Source of the DNA: Methylocucumis oryzae
Lineage (GTDB): Bacteria; Pseudomonadota; Gammaproteobacteria; Methylococcales; Methylomonadaceae
DNA length: 64,000 nt
Reading direction: 5' to 3'
Assembly (NCBI RefSeq): GCF_000963695.1
Contig: NZ_LAJX01000015.1
Location: forward strand, 1 to 64,000
The notes below the pieces were generated by a model. That model was not told the DNA's origin, did no database searches, and saw only the letters and a program-made list of their open reading frames with translations. How positions within the stretch are numbered: position 1 is the first letter of the stretch; each line of letters starts with the position of its first letter. A program made the translations under genes and the position numbers. Below are positions 2,329-14,386 of this stretch, piece by piece.

Positions 2329-2976
2329 ATGGTTAGACCATTAATTCAAATGGCATTGGACTCATTAGATTTCGACGCAACTATTGCTTTAGCTGATCAA
2401 GTTGCGCCTTATATCGATATTTTTGAAATCGGAACTCCGTGCATCAAACACAATGGCGTCAATTTGGTTAAAGCAATGAGATCAAGATTCCCAGATAAAT
2501 TAATCTTGGTTGACCTCAAAACCATGGATGCTGGTGAATATGAAGCAACGCCATTCTATGCAGCTGGCGCTGATATTTGTACGGTATTAGGTGTTTCTGG
2601 CTTAGCGACTTGCAAAGGCGTTATTAAAGCAGCAAACGCACACGGCGCAGAAGCTCAAATCGACTTAATCAATGTTGAAGACAAAGTTGCTTGCGCACGT
2701 GCAACTGCAGAAGCAGGTGCTCATATCATGGGTGTGCATACAGGTCTTGACGCACAAGCCGCAGGTCACACACCTTTCACTGATTTAGCAGATATTGCTA
2801 GATTAGGTTTGAACGTTAGAGTTTCTGTTGCTGGCGGTATTAAAGCATCAACTGTTCAAGACGTAGTAAGAGCAGGTGCAAGCATTATCGTAGTTGGCGC
2901 TGCAATTTACGGTGCACCATCTCCAGCAGAAGCGGCACGTGAAATTCGCGATTTAGTAGAAGCAACAGAGGTTTAA
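2329..2976 (+). CDS. hxlA: 3-hexulose-6-phosphate synthase
   Basis: This enzyme condenses formaldehyde with ribulose 5-phosphate to hexulose 6-phosphate, the fixation step of the RuMP pathway. The 215-residue length and TIM-barrel sequence match the family, which is homologous to orotidine-phosphate decarboxylase and keto-gulonate-phosphate decarboxylase. The signature DLKTMDAGEYE begins at residue 62, carrying the catalytic Asp/Lys/Asp pattern. A second phosphate-binding segment, VAGGIKAST, follows near the C-terminus. The isomerase gene begins 3 bp after the stop, so the two are co-translated. Its presence is the strongest evidence that the host is a RuMP methylotroph. Confidence 0.97.
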   Translation: MVRPLIQMALDSLDFDATIALADQVAPYIDIFEIGTPCIKHNGVNLVKAMRSRFPDKLILVDLKTMDAGEYEATPFYAAGADICTVLGVSGLATCKGVIKAANAHGAEAQIDLINVEDKVACARATAEAGAHIMGVHTGLDAQAAGHTPFTDLADIARLGLNVRVSVAGGIKASTVQDVVRAGASIIVVGAAIYGAPSPAEAAREIRDLVEATEV

Positions 2977-2979
2977 TTA

Positions 2980-3513
2980 ATGCATCAGCAACTTGTTGTC
3001 GATAAGATATCCAGTATTCTGGACGCTACTGACAACACCTACGATGTCAAACTGACCGAAATGTTAGACAATGCAAAACGCATTTTTATCGCAGGTGCTG
3101 GTCGGTCAAAATTAGTAGGCAATTTTTTTGCAATGCGTTTAGTTCATGCTGGATACGATGTTAGCGTCGTAGGTGAAATCGTAACGCCAAGTATCAAACA
3201 AGGCGATTTATTGATTATCATTTCTGGTTCTGGTGAGACTGAGCAATTAATAGCCTTTGCTAAAAGTGCCCAAAAAGTCGGTGCAAAAATTGTATTAATC
3301 TCTGCTAAAAGTGGGTCCACTATCGGTGACATGGCCGAGACTGTACTGCAAATTGGTACTGCCGAACAATACGGAAAAGTGTACGGTATGCCAATGGGAA
3401 CAGTATTTGAACTCTCTACATTGCTTTTCTTGGAATCAACCATTTCTCATATTATCCATGATAAAGGTATTCCTGAAGAAGTGATGAGAGAAAGACACGC
3501 TAATTTAGAGTGA
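2980..3513 (+). CDS. hxlB: 6-phospho-3-hexuloisomerase
   Basis: This 177-residue SIS-domain protein isomerises hexulose 6-phosphate to fructose 6-phosphate, the second RuMP step. The sugar-phosphate-binding segments GAGRSKLVG near residue 38 and SGSGETEQL near residue 79 are intact, and the whole protein is one SIS domain as expected for PHI. It follows hxlA by 3 bp and ends just before a strong hairpin terminator, so hxlA-hxlB forms a transcript separable from transketolase. Confidence 0.96.
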
Positions 3514-3516
3514 TTT

Positions 3517-3553
3517 AAAGGAACGAGAGGGTCTTCCTCTCGTTCCTTTTTTA
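3517..3553 (+). terminator. Rho-independent terminator after hxlAB
   Basis: A long stem AAAGGAACGAGAGG pairs with CCTCTCGTTCCTTT around a four-base loop and runs into a T tract. It begins 4 bp after the hxlB stop. Confidence 0.9.
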
Positions 3554-3637: not shown

Positions 3638-5630
3638 ATGACTTCGCGCCGAGAATTAGCGAACGCCATACGCGCTTTGAGCATGGATGCCGTTCAGAAA
3701 GCAAACTCCGGACATCCGGGTGCGCCCATGGGAATGGCTGACATAGCGGAAGTGTTGTGGAATGATTTTATGACACATAACCCTGTCAACCCAAAATGGT
3801 CAAATCGGGACCGTTTTGTGCTTTCAAATGGACACGGGTCCATGTTGATATACTCTTTATTGCACTTAACGGGTTATGACTTGCCAATAGAAGAGTTAAA
3901 AAGTTTCCGCCAATTACATTCAAAAACGCCAGGACATCCAGAGTACGGTTATGCGCCAGGTGTTGAGACAACTACAGGTCCCTTAGGACAAGGGATTACT
4001 AATGCCGTAGGGATGGCTATCGCCGAGAAAGCATTAGCAGGCCAATTCAACAAAGACGGCCATGCTATTGTCGATCATCATACTTATGTCTTCATGGGTG
4101 ATGGTTGCTTAATGGAAGGTATCTCACATGAGGCGTGTTCATTAGCTGGAACGTTAGGCTTAGGCAAGTTAATTGCGTTTTGGGATGATAACGGAATATC
4201 TATCGATGGCCATGTTGAAGGTTGGTTTACTGATAACACGCCTAAACGCTTTGAAGCTTATGGTTGGCATGTCATTCCAGATGTCGATGGTCATGATAGC
4301 GAGTCTTTACTAAAAGCCATTAGCATGGCTAAAGCGATGACCGATAAGCCAACATTGATTTGTTGTAAAACGACGATTGGCTTTGGTTCTCCTAATAAAA
4401 AAGGCTCTCATGCTTGTCATGGTGCGCCATTAGGTCAAGATGAAATTAATTTAACCAAGGCAGCTTTAGGTTGGGATTATGACGCCTTTGTAATTCCCGC
4501 TCATGTATATGCTGCGTGGGATGCTAAAGAGAAAGGTGCAAAAGCAGAAGCTGCATGGAACGCAAAATTTGCGGCCTATAAAGCGGCGTACCCAGAATTG
4601 GCGGCAGAATATGAACGCCGTGTAGCAGGCGATTTACCTGCAACTTGGCAAGCGGATGCCGACGCCTTTGTTGCGGCCGTGAATGCTGAAGCAAAGACCA
4701 CAGCGACACGTATGTCATCGTTGGCTTCTATCGAAGGCTATGCGAAATTATTACCTGAAATTTTTGGTGGCTCGGCTGACTTAGGTTGCTCGAACATGAC
4801 CGAATGGAAAGGTTATAAACCCATGTGCGACCATGCTGACGCAAACTATGTTAACTATGGTGTTCGTGAGTTTGGCATGTCAGCTATTATGAATGGTATC
4901 GCTTTACATGGTGGTTTTATACCGTTTGGTTCGACATTCTTGATGTTCTCCGAATACGCGCGTAACGCTTTACGCATGTCTGCGTTAATGAAGATTCGTT
5001 CGATATTTGTTTATACCCATGATTCGATTGGCTTAGGTGAAGATGGTCCTACCCATCAACCGATAGAGCAAACAGCAACATTACGTTTAATTCCTAATAT
5101 GAACGTATGGCGTCCGTGCGATGCGGTTGAAACCGCTGTTTCATGGCGCGCTGCACTTGAGCGTAAAGATGGGCCGACGTCATTGATTTTCTCAAGACAA
5201 AACTTAACTCACATGGCTCGCACTCCTGAACAAATAGCGGCGATAAGCCGTGGTGGCTATGTGATAAAAGCTGTTGAAGGCGAAGCTGATGCGATTATTA
5301 TTGCTACAGGTTCTGAGGTTGAACTAGCCGTTAAAGCCGCCGAAGAATTAGCGGGTAAGGGCAAGAAAATCAGTGTGGTTTCAATGCCATCTACCAATGT
5401 GTTTGACGCACAAGATCAAGCTTATCGGGAATCTGTATTACCGTCTTCTGTGACGAAAAGAGTTGCTGTTGAGGCAGGTTGTACGGATGGTTGGTGGAAA
5501 TATGTCGGGAGCCAGGGCAATGTTATCGGAATTAATCACTTCGGTGAATCAGCTCCGGCAGGACTGCTTTTCAAGGAATTTGGCTTCACAGTTGAAAAAT
5601 GTTGTGAAACACGTAGAAGCAATACTTTAA
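3638..5630 (+). CDS. tkt: Transketolase (one C-terminal frameshift)
   Basis: Thiamine-diphosphate transketolase moves two-carbon units between sugar phosphates to regenerate ribulose 5-phosphate. SGHPGAPMG near residue 24, GPLGQGI near 114 and the ThDP motif GDG at 154-156 followed by DDN are present. As written the frame runs on to 5689 with an atypical tail. Deleting one A from the five-A run at 5595-5599 restores the ending [14 protein letters not shown] and a stop at 5628-5630. This gives 663 residues, the normal transketolase length. A clear AAGGAG site precedes the start. It follows the hxlAB terminator and precedes two repeat-protein genes. Confidence 0.95.
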
Positions 5631-5738
5631 TAATAACAATTCAAAGCAATAATGAGGAGGCGCTTCGACTGATACTACGATTTAATTAAATCAGGTTAAG
5701 TTGAGGCGTCTGTTAATTCTGACGTATAGGTGAGCAAA

Positions 5739-6431
5739 GTGAACAAGAATTATCTGATTAACAGTCTATTTATCGGTCTTATCGCAGCCAGTCCATTAGC
5801 AGGAGCTGAAACAAAATACCCAGCCTCTGATTTTCAACCCCAAGTCGTGTTTCAAGACGATGACTATATTAAAAACACTAAAGTAAATGCCGCAGCTGCA
5901 GATGCAAAACCTGCTTATAGTGCGAGTGAAGCAGACCCTAAATATCCTGCTGCTAATTTTCAACCACAAGTTGTTTATAGCGATGCGAACTACAAACACA
6001 ATACTGCTCCCGTAAGAGAATCAAAATCAGATGATTCTGTATCGGCAGCTGCATCTACCACTTCTGAAAGCGCTAGCTCTGCCAGCAAAGCAGAGGCTAA
6101 AGATAGCTCATCAACATATTTGATTGGCTTAGTCGGTTTAGTGTTAGCGGGCGTATTCTTAATGAGAGGCCAATCTCAAGGCGGCTCATCCTCTTCTACA
6201 AAATCAAGTGGCTCTGGAGTTGCTGCGCATCCAGGTGGCTTAACCGGTGTTGCGCGTTACATTAATAAAGCTAACGGCACAGGCGTATCGCGCTACTTAG
6301 AAAAACAAGTTAAATCAGCGGCTACTAAAACCGGTGTTGCCAAATATGTAGCAAAACAAGCTTTAGCTGCAAAATCTAGCGCTACCGAAGCAGCTACAGG
6401 TGTAGAGAAATATTTGCGCGATAGAGGCTAA
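5739..6431 (+). CDS. Unrecognised membrane-anchored TGVxKYL-repeat protein 1
   Basis: I do not recognise this family. A GTG start at 5739 is favoured by AGGTGAG four bases upstream; an in-frame GTG at 5730 is the alternative. Residue numbers use the 5730 start. A signal peptide ends near residue 26 (SPLAGA). Two copies of KYPAxxFQPQVV lie at about 30-41 and 71-82, followed by a Ser/Ala-rich linker and one membrane helix at about 129-146. After the helix come four repeats, TGVARY, TGVSRYL, TGVAKYV and TGVEKYL, which should face the cytoplasm. The gene lies between transketolase and the second repeat gene, 3 bp apart, in the RuMP cluster. A scaffold or anchoring role is only inferred. Confidence 0.8.
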   Translation: MNKNYLINSLFIGLIAASPLAGAETKYPASDFQPQVVFQDDDYIKNTKVNAAAADAKPAYSASEADPKYPAANFQPQVVYSDANYKHNTAPVRESKSDDSVSAAASTTSESASSASKAEAKDSSSTYLIGLVGLVLAGVFLMRGQSQGGSSSSTKSSGSGVAAHPGGLTGVARYINKANGTGVSRYLEKQVKSAATKTGVAKYVAKQALAAKSSATEAATGVEKYLRDRG

Positions 6432-6434
6432 TTC

Positions 6435-7229
6435 ATGAATCAGAATCACGTTAGCGGGTTAATGTTTCCTGCTGTGGCTGGTTTATTCTTTTTTCTAAAG
6501 AAGCCTAAGGCAGAGGAAACTCACTTAGCTTATCCGGTGTTTACACCTGATTTAAGCGGAGCGACCGGCGTTGCTAGGTATCTTGAAAAACAAGAACAGT
6601 TGTTACAGCTTAAATCAGCCGAAGCCGTTGTCGCCGCGCAAGCTGAAGAGGCTAAGCCTATGCAAACAGGGGTGGCAAAATATTTGGAGCAACAGGAACA
6701 GCATAAAGTGACTGGTGTTACTAGGTATACTCGTCGCTTAGCTCTCACAGAAAAACAAGTAAAAGCTTCTTCTACAGGTGTGGAAAGATACTTAAGCAAT
6801 CAAAAAGGCAAGCCAGAATTAACTGGTGTTGCTAAATATTTGAAAAAGCAAGAAGGTCTGCCTAAACCCAGTAAAGTATCTAAATACCTAACAAAACAGC
6901 ATTTAGCCGAAAAACAAGCAAAGCAAGCACAAGTTGTTGTTAATGAATCTAGCGTTACTAAGTATTTAAAAAATCAAGAAAATACTCCGCCTTTATCTAA
7001 AGTAGGCAAGTATTTATTGCGCCAAGATTTGTTAGCAAGACAAGCTCAAAAAGAAAAACAAGTCGCGCCTAAATCAGAATTGACAGGTGTTGCTAAATAC
7101 TTGAAAAGTAAAGAAAGTGAGCCGCAATTAAGCCGAGTAGCAAAATATGTTGCAAGGCAAACGCTTATGGCTAAGCAACAACCCTCTTCTGAGACCGGCG
7201 TAGAAAAATATATGCGTCAGCAAGCTTAA
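6435..7229 (+). CDS. Unrecognised membrane-anchored TGVxKYL-repeat protein 2
   Basis: This 264-residue protein has a short N-terminal hydrophobic helix (about residues 8-22) followed by KKPK, which predicts a cytoplasmic remainder. That remainder is almost entirely repeats: eleven copies of [TS]-[GKSR]-V-x-[KR]-Y-x, for example [20 protein letters not shown] and [10 protein letters not shown]. The later copies form a higher-order unit of about 40 residues that alternates a TGV/SSV half with an SKV/SRV half. Segments between copies are Lys/Gln/Glu/Ala-rich and probably helical. It follows repeat protein 1 by 3 bp and precedes transaldolase by 64 bp. I cannot assign a function; co-location suggests a link to RuMP enzymes. 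Confidence 0.8.
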
Positions 7230-7293: not shown

Positions 7294-8280
7294 ATGGCAA
7301 AAAATTTACTCGAACAGCTCAGAGAAGTAACGGTTGTTGTTGCTGATACGGGTGATATTCAAGCGATTGAAAAATATAAACCACAAGATGCAACCACAAA
7401 CCCATCATTAATTACAGCGGCAGCACAAATGCCGCAGTATCAAGGTATTGTTGATGATACGTTAAAAGGTGCTAGAGCAACATTAGGTGCTGATGCCGCG
7501 CCTGCGCAAGTTGTGTCGTTAGCATTTGACCGTTTAGCCGTTTCATTCGGCTTAAAAATTCTTGAAATCATTCCTGGTCGCGTATCGACTGAAGTTGATG
7601 CGCGTTTGTCGTATGATACTGAAGCAACTATCGCAAAAGGTAGAGACTTAATTGCCCAGTATGAAGCAAACGGTGTTTCGCGTGAGCGTATCTTGATTAA
7701 AATCGCAGCCACTTGGGAAGGTATTCAAGCGGCCGCTGTGTTAGAAAAAGAAGGCATTCACTGTAACTTAACGTTGTTATTCGGTTTACATCAAGCGATT
7801 GCTTGTGCCGAGAATGGTATTACTTTAATTTCGCCATTTGTAGGTCGTATCTTAGACTGGTATAAAAAAGATACTGGCCGTGATTCTTACGCACCTGCGG
7901 AAGATCCAGGCGTATTATCTGTCACGCAAGTTTACAATTATTACAAAAAATTCGGTTATAAAACTGAAGTTATGGGCGCAAGTTTCCGTAACATCGGTGA
8001 GATTACTGAATTAGCGGGCAGTGACTTGTTAACGATTGCACCTTCATTATTAGGCGAATTACAGGCTACTGAAGGCGAGTTACCTCGCAAATTAGATCCA
8101 GAAGTCGCGAAAACTCAGGATATCGAAAAGCTTTCTATGGATAAAGATACGTTCGATAAAATGCATGCTGAAAACAGAATGGCCACAGAAAAACTATCAG
8201 AAGGTATTGCGGGATTTACTACGGCATTAGAAACTTTAGAGAAATTGTTGGCTGAACGTTTACAAACATTGGAAGCATAA
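7294..8280 (+). CDS. tal: Transaldolase
   Basis: Transaldolase transfers a dihydroxyacetone unit between sugar phosphates in the rearrangement phase of the RuMP and pentose phosphate pathways. The 328-residue protein is of the TalB class. It has the N-terminal TTNPSLI motif near residue 34 and the Schiff-base lysine in [11 protein letters not shown] at about K136. The later [13 protein letters not shown] and GASFRN segments are also present. The start is preceded by a modest AGGTAA site. It lies between the repeat-protein genes and aldolase, and a hairpin follows the stop. Confidence 0.97.
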
Positions 8281-8355: not shown

Positions 8356-9438
8356 ATGTCACAAAAGATTTTAGATGTGGTCAAACCCGGTGTTGTTACC
8401 GGTGATGATGTGCAAAAAATATTTGCAATTGCGAAAGCCAATAGTTTTGCATTGCCTGCGGTCAATGTAATCGGAACCAGTTCTATCAATGCGGTTATGG
8501 AAGCTGCCGCAAAAGCAAAAATCTGCCGTTATTATTCAGTTTTCTAACGGTGGTGCGCAGTATGTTGCAGGGAAAGGTTTGAAATTAGAAGGCCAGAAAA
8601 CAGCTATCTTAGGTGCGATTTCTGGTGCGCAACATGTTCATGCATTAGCGGAAAGCTATGGTGTACCTGTAATTTTTGCATACCGATCATGCTGCAAAAA
8701 AATTTATTGCCTTGGATTGATGGTTTATTAGATGCAGGTGAAAAATTTTATGCTGAACATGGTAAACCCTTATTCAGCTCGCACATGCTGGATTTATCGG
8801 AAGAAAGTTTAGCGGAGAATATTGAAATTTGCGGTCAATATTTAACCCGTATGGCTAAGCTAGGCATGACCTTAGAGATTGAATTAGGTGTGACCGGTGG
8901 CGAAGAAGATGGTGTTGACAATAGTGATAAAGACCACTCCATGCTTTACACGCAGCCTGAAGATGTGGCTTACTCTTATGAGCACTTAATTAAAATTAGC
9001 GATAAATTCACGATAGCGGCTTCATTTGGTAATGTTCACGGTGTTTATTCACCGGGTAATGTTAAGTTAACTCCGAAAATCTTAGACAACTCACAGAAGT
9101 ATGTTTCTGAAAAATACGGCATTCCTGCGAACAGCTTAAACTTTGTTTTCCATGGTGGCTCAGGCTCATCTGCAGAAGAAATCAAAGAGTCTATCAGCTA
9201 TGGCGTTGTGAAAATGAATATTGATACTGATACCCAGTGGGCAACTTGGGCCGGTATTATGGAATATTACAAAAAAAACGAAGGTTATTTACAAGGTCAA
9301 ATAGGCAATCCAGACGGCGCTGATAAACCTAATAAGAAATATTATGATCCTCGTGTATGGCAAAGAGCAGGTGAAACCGGTATGGTTAACCGTTTATTAC
9401 AAGCATTTGATGAATTAAACTCAACTGGAAGCTTGTAA
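8356..9438 (+). CDS. fbaA: Fructose-bisphosphate aldolase, class II (three frameshifts)
   Basis: This zinc aldolase cleaves fructose 1,6-bisphosphate to two triose phosphates, completing the Embden-Meyerhof variant of RuMP. The reading frame breaks three times. One extra base each in the A run 8517-8521, the T run 8673-8677 and the TTT at 8703-8705 accounts for all breaks. The restored protein is 359 residues, the same as E. coli FbaA, and regains HTDHAAKKLLPW with its metal and catalytic residues. ELGVTGGEEDG, GNVHGVY and FHGGSGSS follow intact. A strong terminator lies 20 bp beyond the stop. All breaks are most likely base-calling errors. Confidence 0.93.
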
Positions 9439-12548: not shown

Positions 12549-13725
12549 ATGAAATCGCTGGATGTGCGCACCATGATGGTGATGGTGGCTTGCTTAAATT
12601 TACTCTTCTGTGGCTTACTGGCATTAGCTGGATTACATGCCGGTAGTATTCGAGGTATGCGCCACTGGGCGGTAGCGAGTTTTTGCGCTGGACTGAGTTT
12701 AGGGTTAGCCCTACTGCAAGAAAGACCGAGTTTAGAGCCAAATTGGGTTATTGTTGTGGGCTCTGTGTTGCTAGCGTTAGCTTTATGCTTATATTGGAAT
12801 GGTATTAAGGCGTTTTAAGGAACAACGTCAGCTATGGTTGTTATCCAGTATTTTTATTGTTTTAGTATTGTTGCAAAATCTGTGGTTTTGCATTCTTAGG
12901 CCAGATATTAATGGTCGCGTAATTGCCAATTCGTTAGCGTTTGGTTTAATTAATGCGTTATGTGCTAAAGCATTACTCATCCGTATTGAGCAACCGCTAA
13001 GAACGGCTTATTGGTTTACCGGCGGTGCGTTTGCGATTCAAGGCGCTATGTTTTTTACTAGAGCACTAAAACTGATTGTTTTTCCTGACCCGAATTATTG
13101 GCTTTATGCTTCCGCGTTAATTAATCCGGTAACATTTTTTGTCGGTAGTGTGACTCAGTTATGCTTAACCTTTGGCTTTGTGCTCATGCTGAATTATCGC
13201 TTGGCGATGCATTTACAGATGTTAGCCACGCATGATCAATTAACAGACGCCTTAAATCGACGCAGTTTAGAGGAAAAAGGTGCGATGTTTTGTTCGTTAT
13301 TTCAACGCACAGGCAAAACGTTTGTCGGTTATGCTGCTGGATATTGATTATTTTAAGGTGGTTAACGATACCTATGGGCATCAAACAGGTGATTTAGTAT
13401 TAAAGCGCTTATCTGAAATGGTAAACGCTACGATACGCAATGCAGATTGCTTTGCGCGTTATGGCGGCGAAGAATTTTGTATTCTAATGCCTTCGACCAG
13501 CGAATTAGATGCGCTGGTATTAGCGGAGCGCATACGCAATGCTTATGCCGCATTGGTCTTTGAAGTTAACGGGCAATCATTTCAAAGCACGTTAAGTATT
13601 GGCGTAGCGATTCTAAAAGCACTGGATTGCAGTTCGATAAGCTTATTACAGCGGCCGATAAAAGTCTTTATTATGCGAAACAGCATGGACGAAATCAGTC
13701 GATTGCTGTTTCTAGCATCATGTAG
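12549..13725 (+). CDS. Membrane diguanylate cyclase (three frameshifts)
   Basis: This is a GGDEF enzyme making cyclic di-GMP. The restored 391 residues contain about seven N-terminal membrane helices, then the linker [14 protein letters not shown] and the cyclase domain with [12 protein letters not shown] and RYGGEEFCI (the active GGEEF form). Breaks lie at the T run 12813-12816 (one extra), the A run 13315-13318 (one extra) and near 13610-13613 (one missing). Correcting them gives the typical ending [16 protein letters not shown] and a stop at 13725. The convergent murU gene overlaps the end by a few bases. The membrane part is an unassigned sensor. Confidence 0.85.
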
Positions 13726-14386
13726 TGCCATATTTTGCTGACAACACTTGCAAGCGCTCTGGTGTGCCTATGTCTAACCAAAAACCTTGATGATGGCAGC
13801 CATGCACCTGGGCTTGTTGCATGGCAGCTCGCAGAATAGGCGCTAATTTTAAAATACCGGGTTGACAGTTGTTGAATAAGGCCGGGTGATAAACGCCAAT
13901 GCCGCTAAAAGTGAGTTTATGTTCACCACATTCCTTGAGTTGTCCGTCATCCGTCAGCGCAAAATCGCCTTGAGGATGATGCTCAGGGTTATCGACTAAG
14001 ACTAAATAGGCTAAGTCTATCTCGATATTTTGTAGTAGCCGGTAGTCAAAATCGGTGGCTATATCGCCATTGACCACTAGAAACGGTTGTTCTCCGAGTA
14101 AGGGCAGGGCGTTAATAATACCGCCAGCGGTTTCTAAGGCTGTATTGCCTTCAGCGGAGTATTGGATAGTAGCGCCAAATTGTTCACCATTACCTAAATA
14201 TGCTTCGATTTGCTCACCTAAATAGGCGTGGTTAATAACAATCTCAGTGAAACCGGCAGTCACAAGCTGATTAAGTGTATGTTCGATTAATGGTTTACCT
14301 GCGGCCCGTAATAACGGTTTGGGGGTATGGTCGGTGAGGGGACGCATACGTTCGCCACGTCCGGCGGCTAAAATCATGGCTTTCAT
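13718..14386 (-). CDS. murU: N-acetylmuramate 1-phosphate uridylyltransferase
   Basis: MurU makes UDP-MurNAc from MurNAc 1-phosphate in the cell-wall recycling route that bypasses de novo synthesis. The 222-residue protein has the nucleotidyltransferase signature [14 protein letters not shown] at residues 5-18, [13 protein letters not shown] and the metal-binding segment VVNGDIATD. Its ATG overlaps the amgK stop (ATGA), indicating translational coupling. A generic sugar nucleotidyltransferase is the alternative, but the amgK partner supports MurU. Confidence 0.9.

Follow-up and report, generated by a model that had tools for sequence, protein, structure and literature searches.

How methanotrophs pass toxic formaldehyde from periplasmic oxidation to cytoplasmic fixation without loss is an open question of both physiology and synthetic methylotrophy, and the locus described here raises a specific form of it: what do two repeat proteins encoded in the middle of a RuMP gene cluster do? 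We analyzed a window of 64,000 nucleotides of Methylocucumis oryzae (contig NZ_LAJX01000015.1), in which a first-pass annotation had noticed two tandem genes, here P1 and P2, and had suggested a membrane-bound scaffold for RuMP enzymes. Our results favor, with a probability of roughly 0.58, P1 and P2 acting as a multivalent scaffold, anchored in the membrane, on which RuMP pathway enzymes dock, with hexulose-6-phosphate synthase (HPS) together with 6-phospho-3-hexuloisomerase (HPI) as the most likely client.

The gene cluster (Table 1) has an operon-like layout around the two genes, with 3 bases between P1 and P2 and, as called, 40 and 64 bases to their outer neighbors. As called from a GTG start, P1 has 233 residues, but the likelier start is the second GTG at 5739, which AGGTGA closely precedes; P2 has 264 residues. 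Given the hairpin that follows hpi, hps and hpi may be expressed more than the downstream genes. Past the run of A at 5595–5599, the other frame of tkt reads eleven residues and a stop, the expected transketolase ending, and the break in frame is probably an assembly error. Similarly, fba and the gene of a GGDEF-like protein (12799–13741) are each split across two frames, probably by assembly indel errors. A second HPS gene elsewhere in the genome (G000:C13:3891–4502, locus L194) is apparently fused to HPI in a frame of 399 aa and has no repeat gene near it.

Table 1. Positions, within the window, of the RuMP cluster genes and of the parts of P1 and P2.
Feature	Position	Strand	Basis or remark
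hps (hexulose-6-phosphate synthase), first cluster gene	2329..2976	+	Pfam OMPdecase/HUMPS family 1.8e-41; TIGR03128 5.7e-74, above cut-off
hpi (6-phospho-3-hexuloisomerase)	2980..3513	+	SIS domain 2e-18; adjoins hps
15-pair hairpin with T-rich tail between hpi and tkt, possible terminator or attenuator	3517..3549	+	consensus scan only
tkt (transketolase)	3638..5689	+	reading frame probably wrong at the 3′ end
P1, predicted to comprise a signal peptide, two YPA repeats in the periplasm, one membrane helix, and four TGVx[KR]Y repeats in the cytoplasm	5730..6431	+	
P1 periplasmic repeat 1, YPASDFQP	5817..5840	+	
P1 periplasmic repeat 2, YPAANFQP	5943..5966	+	
P1 membrane helix, residues 127–149	6108..6176	+	hydropathy; AlphaFold2 helix
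P1 cytoplasmic tail, motifs TGVARYI, TGVSRYL, TGVAKYV, TGVEKYL	6243..6416	+	
P2: eleven repeats behind a short hydrophobic N-terminus	6435..7229	+	
P2 repeat region: eleven motifs, with a short helix predicted to start at each	6564..7214	+	
tal (transaldolase)	7294..8280	+	
fba (fructose-bisphosphate aldolase)	8489..9438	+	in two frames in this assembly

The fifteen motifs between tkt and tal that the first-pass annotation had counted were recovered by a pattern search for [TS]-x-V-x-[KR]-Y-[LVIMT], which found 4 copies in P1 and 11 in P2, while shuffling each protein 5000 times yielded on average 0.0014 (P1) and 0.003 (P2) motifs and at most one. A set of 1064 motifs, drawn from 164 distinct repeat proteins and fragments, most commonly shows the form [TS]-G-V-A-[KR]-Y-[LMV]-x-[KR]-Q, spaced mostly 15 to 27 residues apart, with up to 18 motifs in a single protein. 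Given that V and Y were preset by the search pattern in this set, the independent test is provided by orthologs aligned to P1 and P2 of the window. Across 24 ortholog pairs, V and Y were unchanged at 15 of 15 places, and identity in motif columns versus the remainder was 0.78 versus 0.45 in P2 and 0.90 versus 0.50 in P1; the spacers between motifs differ in length and sequence. Searching the whole genome with the DNA pattern [TS]GVx[KR]Y yielded 10 matches, eight in P1 and P2 and two out of frame in other genes, and occurrence of the motif elsewhere in this genome was rejected on that ground. Within 1.8 Mb of loci, no ORF of at least 60 aa other than repeat proteins and their fragments carries the strict motif, indicating that the RuMP enzymes and their neighbors do not share it, and we rejected the motif as a docking tail on enzymes.

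Neither protein could be placed in a described family, as had been supposed: searches of Pfam and NCBIfam returned zero matches for P1 and P2, and hence none above a curated cut-off. Some orthologs match U1snRNP70_N (up to 7e-9), which we set aside as low-complexity matches given that the matched stretches are short and vary in place.

AlphaFold2 models, that of P2 built with an alignment of 20 orthologs, predicted one short helix at each of the 15 motifs (eleven in P2, four in P1). The P2 helices each begin at motif position 2, suggesting that T/S serves as the helix cap and that V, Y, and L share one face. Confidence was moderate (70–85 for most P2 motif helices, 55–65 for those of P1), and a global fold was absent from both models (pTM 0.18 for P2, 0.16 for P1). 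For P1, hydropathy and the model, with helices for the signal, the membrane span, and each of the four motifs, bear out the predicted order of signal peptide, two periplasmic YPAxxFQPQVV repeats, one membrane helix, and four cytoplasmic repeats. For P2, the eleven repeats described earlier stand, and their pairing holds in the central part, where motif helices at 131/173/218 and 147/189/234 define a unit of 42–45 residues. The N-terminal helix attributed to P2 fared less well. Over ten residues this N-terminus is hydrophobic in the genus of the window; judged by eye, L026 and L052 have an evident membrane helix here, and other genera show a short segment of amphipathic appearance. Given that the hydropathy cut-off for a membrane helix was reached in only part of the orthologs, it is no sure transmembrane helix. 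Repeat proteins of other lineages likewise have N-termini that look, by eye, short and hydrophobic or amphipathic. Sequence features support membrane targeting that recurs in varied forms, namely transmembrane helix, short hydrophobic segment, and amphipathic N-terminus, and attachment by such different means suggests that membrane location matters.

The gene order hps-hpi-tkt-P1-P2-tal, often followed by fba, characterizes the family of the window. In family f4, which we judge to include Methylococcus from the tandem RuMP repeat of PMC517821, a P1-type protein that carries three to five motifs is encoded directly upstream of hps-hpi (R-hps-hpi, where R is the repeat gene), and in family f10, inferred to be perhaps relatives of Methylophaga, the order is hps-R-tal-hps-hpi, with R lacking a membrane helix. 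A RuMP gene lies within 6 kb in 104 of 118 repeat-gene clusters, but these clusters were found by similarity, include many close relatives, and are not independent trials, so that more weight falls on the three gene orders. The other 14 comprise contig edges, L063, L064, L068, and L070 with their zinc-finger-tailed proteins, L067, L091, and segments of a single Hpt-domain protein that overlap one another. Locus L081 (G029) contains three hps-hpi-tkt units with a repeat gene after each; L087 (G035) has tandem hps-hpi-tkt copies and a repeat gene in three pieces between two hps copies. Given that hps and hpi are the enzyme genes in the unit in all three gene orders and hps is the direct neighbor in two of them, HPS is the first candidate client. 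The RuMP association of the repeat genes is real and survives rearrangement, and the expected conservation beside RuMP genes was found in nearly all genomes of the window's family and, beside hps in other orders, in two more families.

Within the family, each of the 37 genomes in the relatives sample, the window's own among them, had P2-like repeats; across the order, 263 of 301 genomes had P1. In a class sample of 369 gammaproteobacterial genomes, with HPS called by the curated cut-off, all six genomes above the cut-off had repeats, against 0 of the 363 HPS-free genomes, as expected if repeats accompany HPS. Five of these six were found with P2 or the L149 protein as query, while the sixth, G039, had a P1 match and two groups of five DNA motif hits close upstream of its two hps copies. 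A match in G052 looks the same as one in G038, and we therefore consider it probably a contaminating contig. The expectation failed in the other direction: repeats were not detectable in the HPS-bearing genomes of family f6, in G453, G057, and several other f4 genomes, or in G814 from outside the order, and among single pattern hits in HPS-bearing genomes that lack P1, none fell in an ORF of at least 50 aa reading the motif. The existence of such lineages means that the repeat protein is not obligatory.

Some repeat proteins are encoded away from RuMP genes. A third type (L063:2734–3519, L064:8442–9272, L068:7779–8555, L070:7776–8633), not located beside RuMP genes, starts with an amphipathic-looking segment and ends in a Cys/His domain (CQAxTxKGTQC...VCxQH). 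An 849-residue Hpt-domain signaling protein with six TSVERYIQQQ repeats is encoded at L148:3–2549 (minus strand), in a genome that carries HPS and a RuMP-linked repeat protein too, and the L067 repeat gene adjoins a SulP-like transporter gene. Occurrence beside unrelated genes, which would speak against a RuMP role, was therefore seen for the zinc-finger-tailed type and a few others, while in the class sample no genome without HPS had the repeats. Family f6 and G044, a genome without HPS, encode P1-like proteins in which signal peptide, YPA repeats, and membrane helix are retained but the cytoplasmic tail is a different one. P1-like proteins that lack the motif adjoin mutS and other genes, those of f6 a mutS-like gene, rather than RuMP genes, indicating that motif tail and RuMP location go together. 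The P1 periplasmic motif also occurs by itself, in a secreted protein of about 100 residues with three YPAxxFxPxVIY repeats (L187:5581–5994, contig C1 of the same genome, minus strand) that was found in relatives too. In several genomes, this YPA-only protein adjoins a NitT/TauT-type ABC transporter; no methanol oxidation genes, which could have pointed to methanol dehydrogenase, were recognized beside it among genes named by eye.

How the proposed scaffold could act follows from the membrane topology that we infer for P1 and P2 in the cell. P1 would span the membrane, held in the envelope by its periplasmic YPA repeats, and its cytoplasmic tail would offer four docking helices, while P2, attached by its short hydrophobic or amphipathic N-terminus, would offer eleven. 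Each T/S-capped helix may turn the face that bears V, Y, and L toward a groove of the client enzyme, most likely HPS together with HPI. Because the clients would be oligomeric and each scaffold carries many motifs, the enzymes could be gathered at the membrane in a cluster that traps formaldehyde on its entry into the cytoplasm. The scaffold suggested by the first-pass annotation gains from the predicted membrane targeting, the multivalent helical motifs, and the genomic association, and loses from HPS lineages that are repeat-free and from repeat proteins elsewhere, namely L067, L091, the zinc-finger-tailed proteins, and the Hpt-domain protein with its six TSVERYI repeats. A bolder extension, which we regard as tentative and on balance doubtful, is a natural formaldehyde-fixing metabolon in which P1 would link periplasmic methanol oxidation to a cytoplasmic HPS/HPI cluster or condensate formed via the docking helices of P1 and P2, a one-carbon counterpart of the pyrenoid or carboxysome.

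Operon position alone could reflect shared expression, and the main rival builds on this: the repeats would bind a non-enzyme partner, such as an organizer of the internal membranes or an envelope protein, and the RuMP position would only match expression on C1 compounds. This rival stays alive because repeat proteins exist away from RuMP genes, among them the zinc-finger-type proteins and the Hpt-domain protein bearing the same motif, and it is also favored by the periplasmic half of P1, whose motif is found as a separate secreted protein. However, three gene orders tie the repeat gene to hps-hpi and not to membrane genes, and repeats are lacking from HPS-free genomes of the class sample, so we consider such a partner unlikely. 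It is more unlikely still that P1 and P2 are regulators or inhibitors of RuMP enzymes, in the manner of CP12 in the Calvin cycle, instead of scaffolds for them. The tight operon with the enzymes and the flexible chains with short helical motifs would suit a regulator, but a switch needs neither a membrane anchor nor as many as 18 similar motifs. Known regulatory domains are absent from P1 and P2, and by composition both lack cysteine, leaving none of the paired cysteines of CP12.

The two remaining explanations dispense with a partner. Repeats that pair mutually could build a coat or lattice at the membrane with no enzyme as client, in line with the joint encoding of two proteins with the same motif and with the hydrophobic face of the motif helices; we regard this as highly improbable, given that overall packing was absent from both models and that the association with hps would be left unexplained. 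That the repeats are low-complexity filler with no specific function is hardly credible: the variable spacers would fit, but the invariance of V and Y across the ortholog pairs contradicts it, and repeats are present across several families. The docking scaffold for HPS and HPI is accordingly the reading that we prefer.

HPS of M. capsulatus is said to have been described as particulate, which we did not use as evidence. In literature searches that covered mainly journals outside subscription, we found no description of a RuMP scaffold and nothing usable on membrane-bound HPS in methanotrophs. The passages retrieved from two descriptions of the Methylococcus RuMP locus name the enzymes and not the repeat gene (PMC517821, PMC8527097). 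A CRISPRi screen reported that guides against the RuMP operons MCA3040-45 and MCA3046-50 were depleted on methane, with operon scores in which single-gene effects are inseparable (PMC13108547). If the scaffold reading is correct, a conserved, operon-encoded membrane protein pair makes formaldehyde transfer directly testable.

Two features of multivalent linkers are found in P1 and P2, namely many copies of a short conserved motif in a flexible chain (4 + 11) and genetic association with a candidate client enzyme (three gene orders and 104 of the 118 clusters, related as these are). P1 and P2 would work like CsoS2, EPYC1, and PYCO1 by analogy, and no family match places them there. CsoS2, the scaffold of alpha-carboxysomes, is a flexible protein that contains many short motifs and whose gene lies next to that of the carbon-fixing enzyme it gathers. 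P1 and P2 are also flexible, rich in motifs, and encoded beside carbon-fixing enzyme genes, but they appear membrane-anchored and shell-less, and the enzyme would be HPS/HPI and not Rubisco. No Pfam match linked P1, P2, P2 orthologs, or other repeat proteins to the CsoS2 repeats, and the cluster, with the same neighbors in most genomes, holds hps, hpi, tkt, tal, and fba and no carboxysome shell or Rubisco genes. Weak matches to diatom pyrenoid component 2 (DPC2, Pfam PF25195) in the repeat regions of L064, L067, and L068 (15.9–17.7 bits versus a cut-off of 70) are due to chance or a convergent motif, and P1 and P2 give none. EPYC1 is a pyrenoid Rubisco linker, as is PYCO1 (PMC10288592). With these, P1 and P2 share one short motif per repeat and the proposed clustering of an oligomeric enzyme, but they have another motif, are bacterial and seemingly membrane-tethered, and belong to the RuMP pathway. 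Engineered Mdh-Hps-Phi assemblies are cited as having improved methanol conversion (in PMC8879981), with the same proposed effect of bringing formaldehyde-producing and formaldehyde-fixing enzymes together, though by artificial fusions or complexes instead of a natural repeat scaffold. If our reading is correct, P1 and P2 would be a natural component for the engineering of strains that use methanol, and the linker-protein principle known for Rubisco would extend to a second carbon-fixing pathway.
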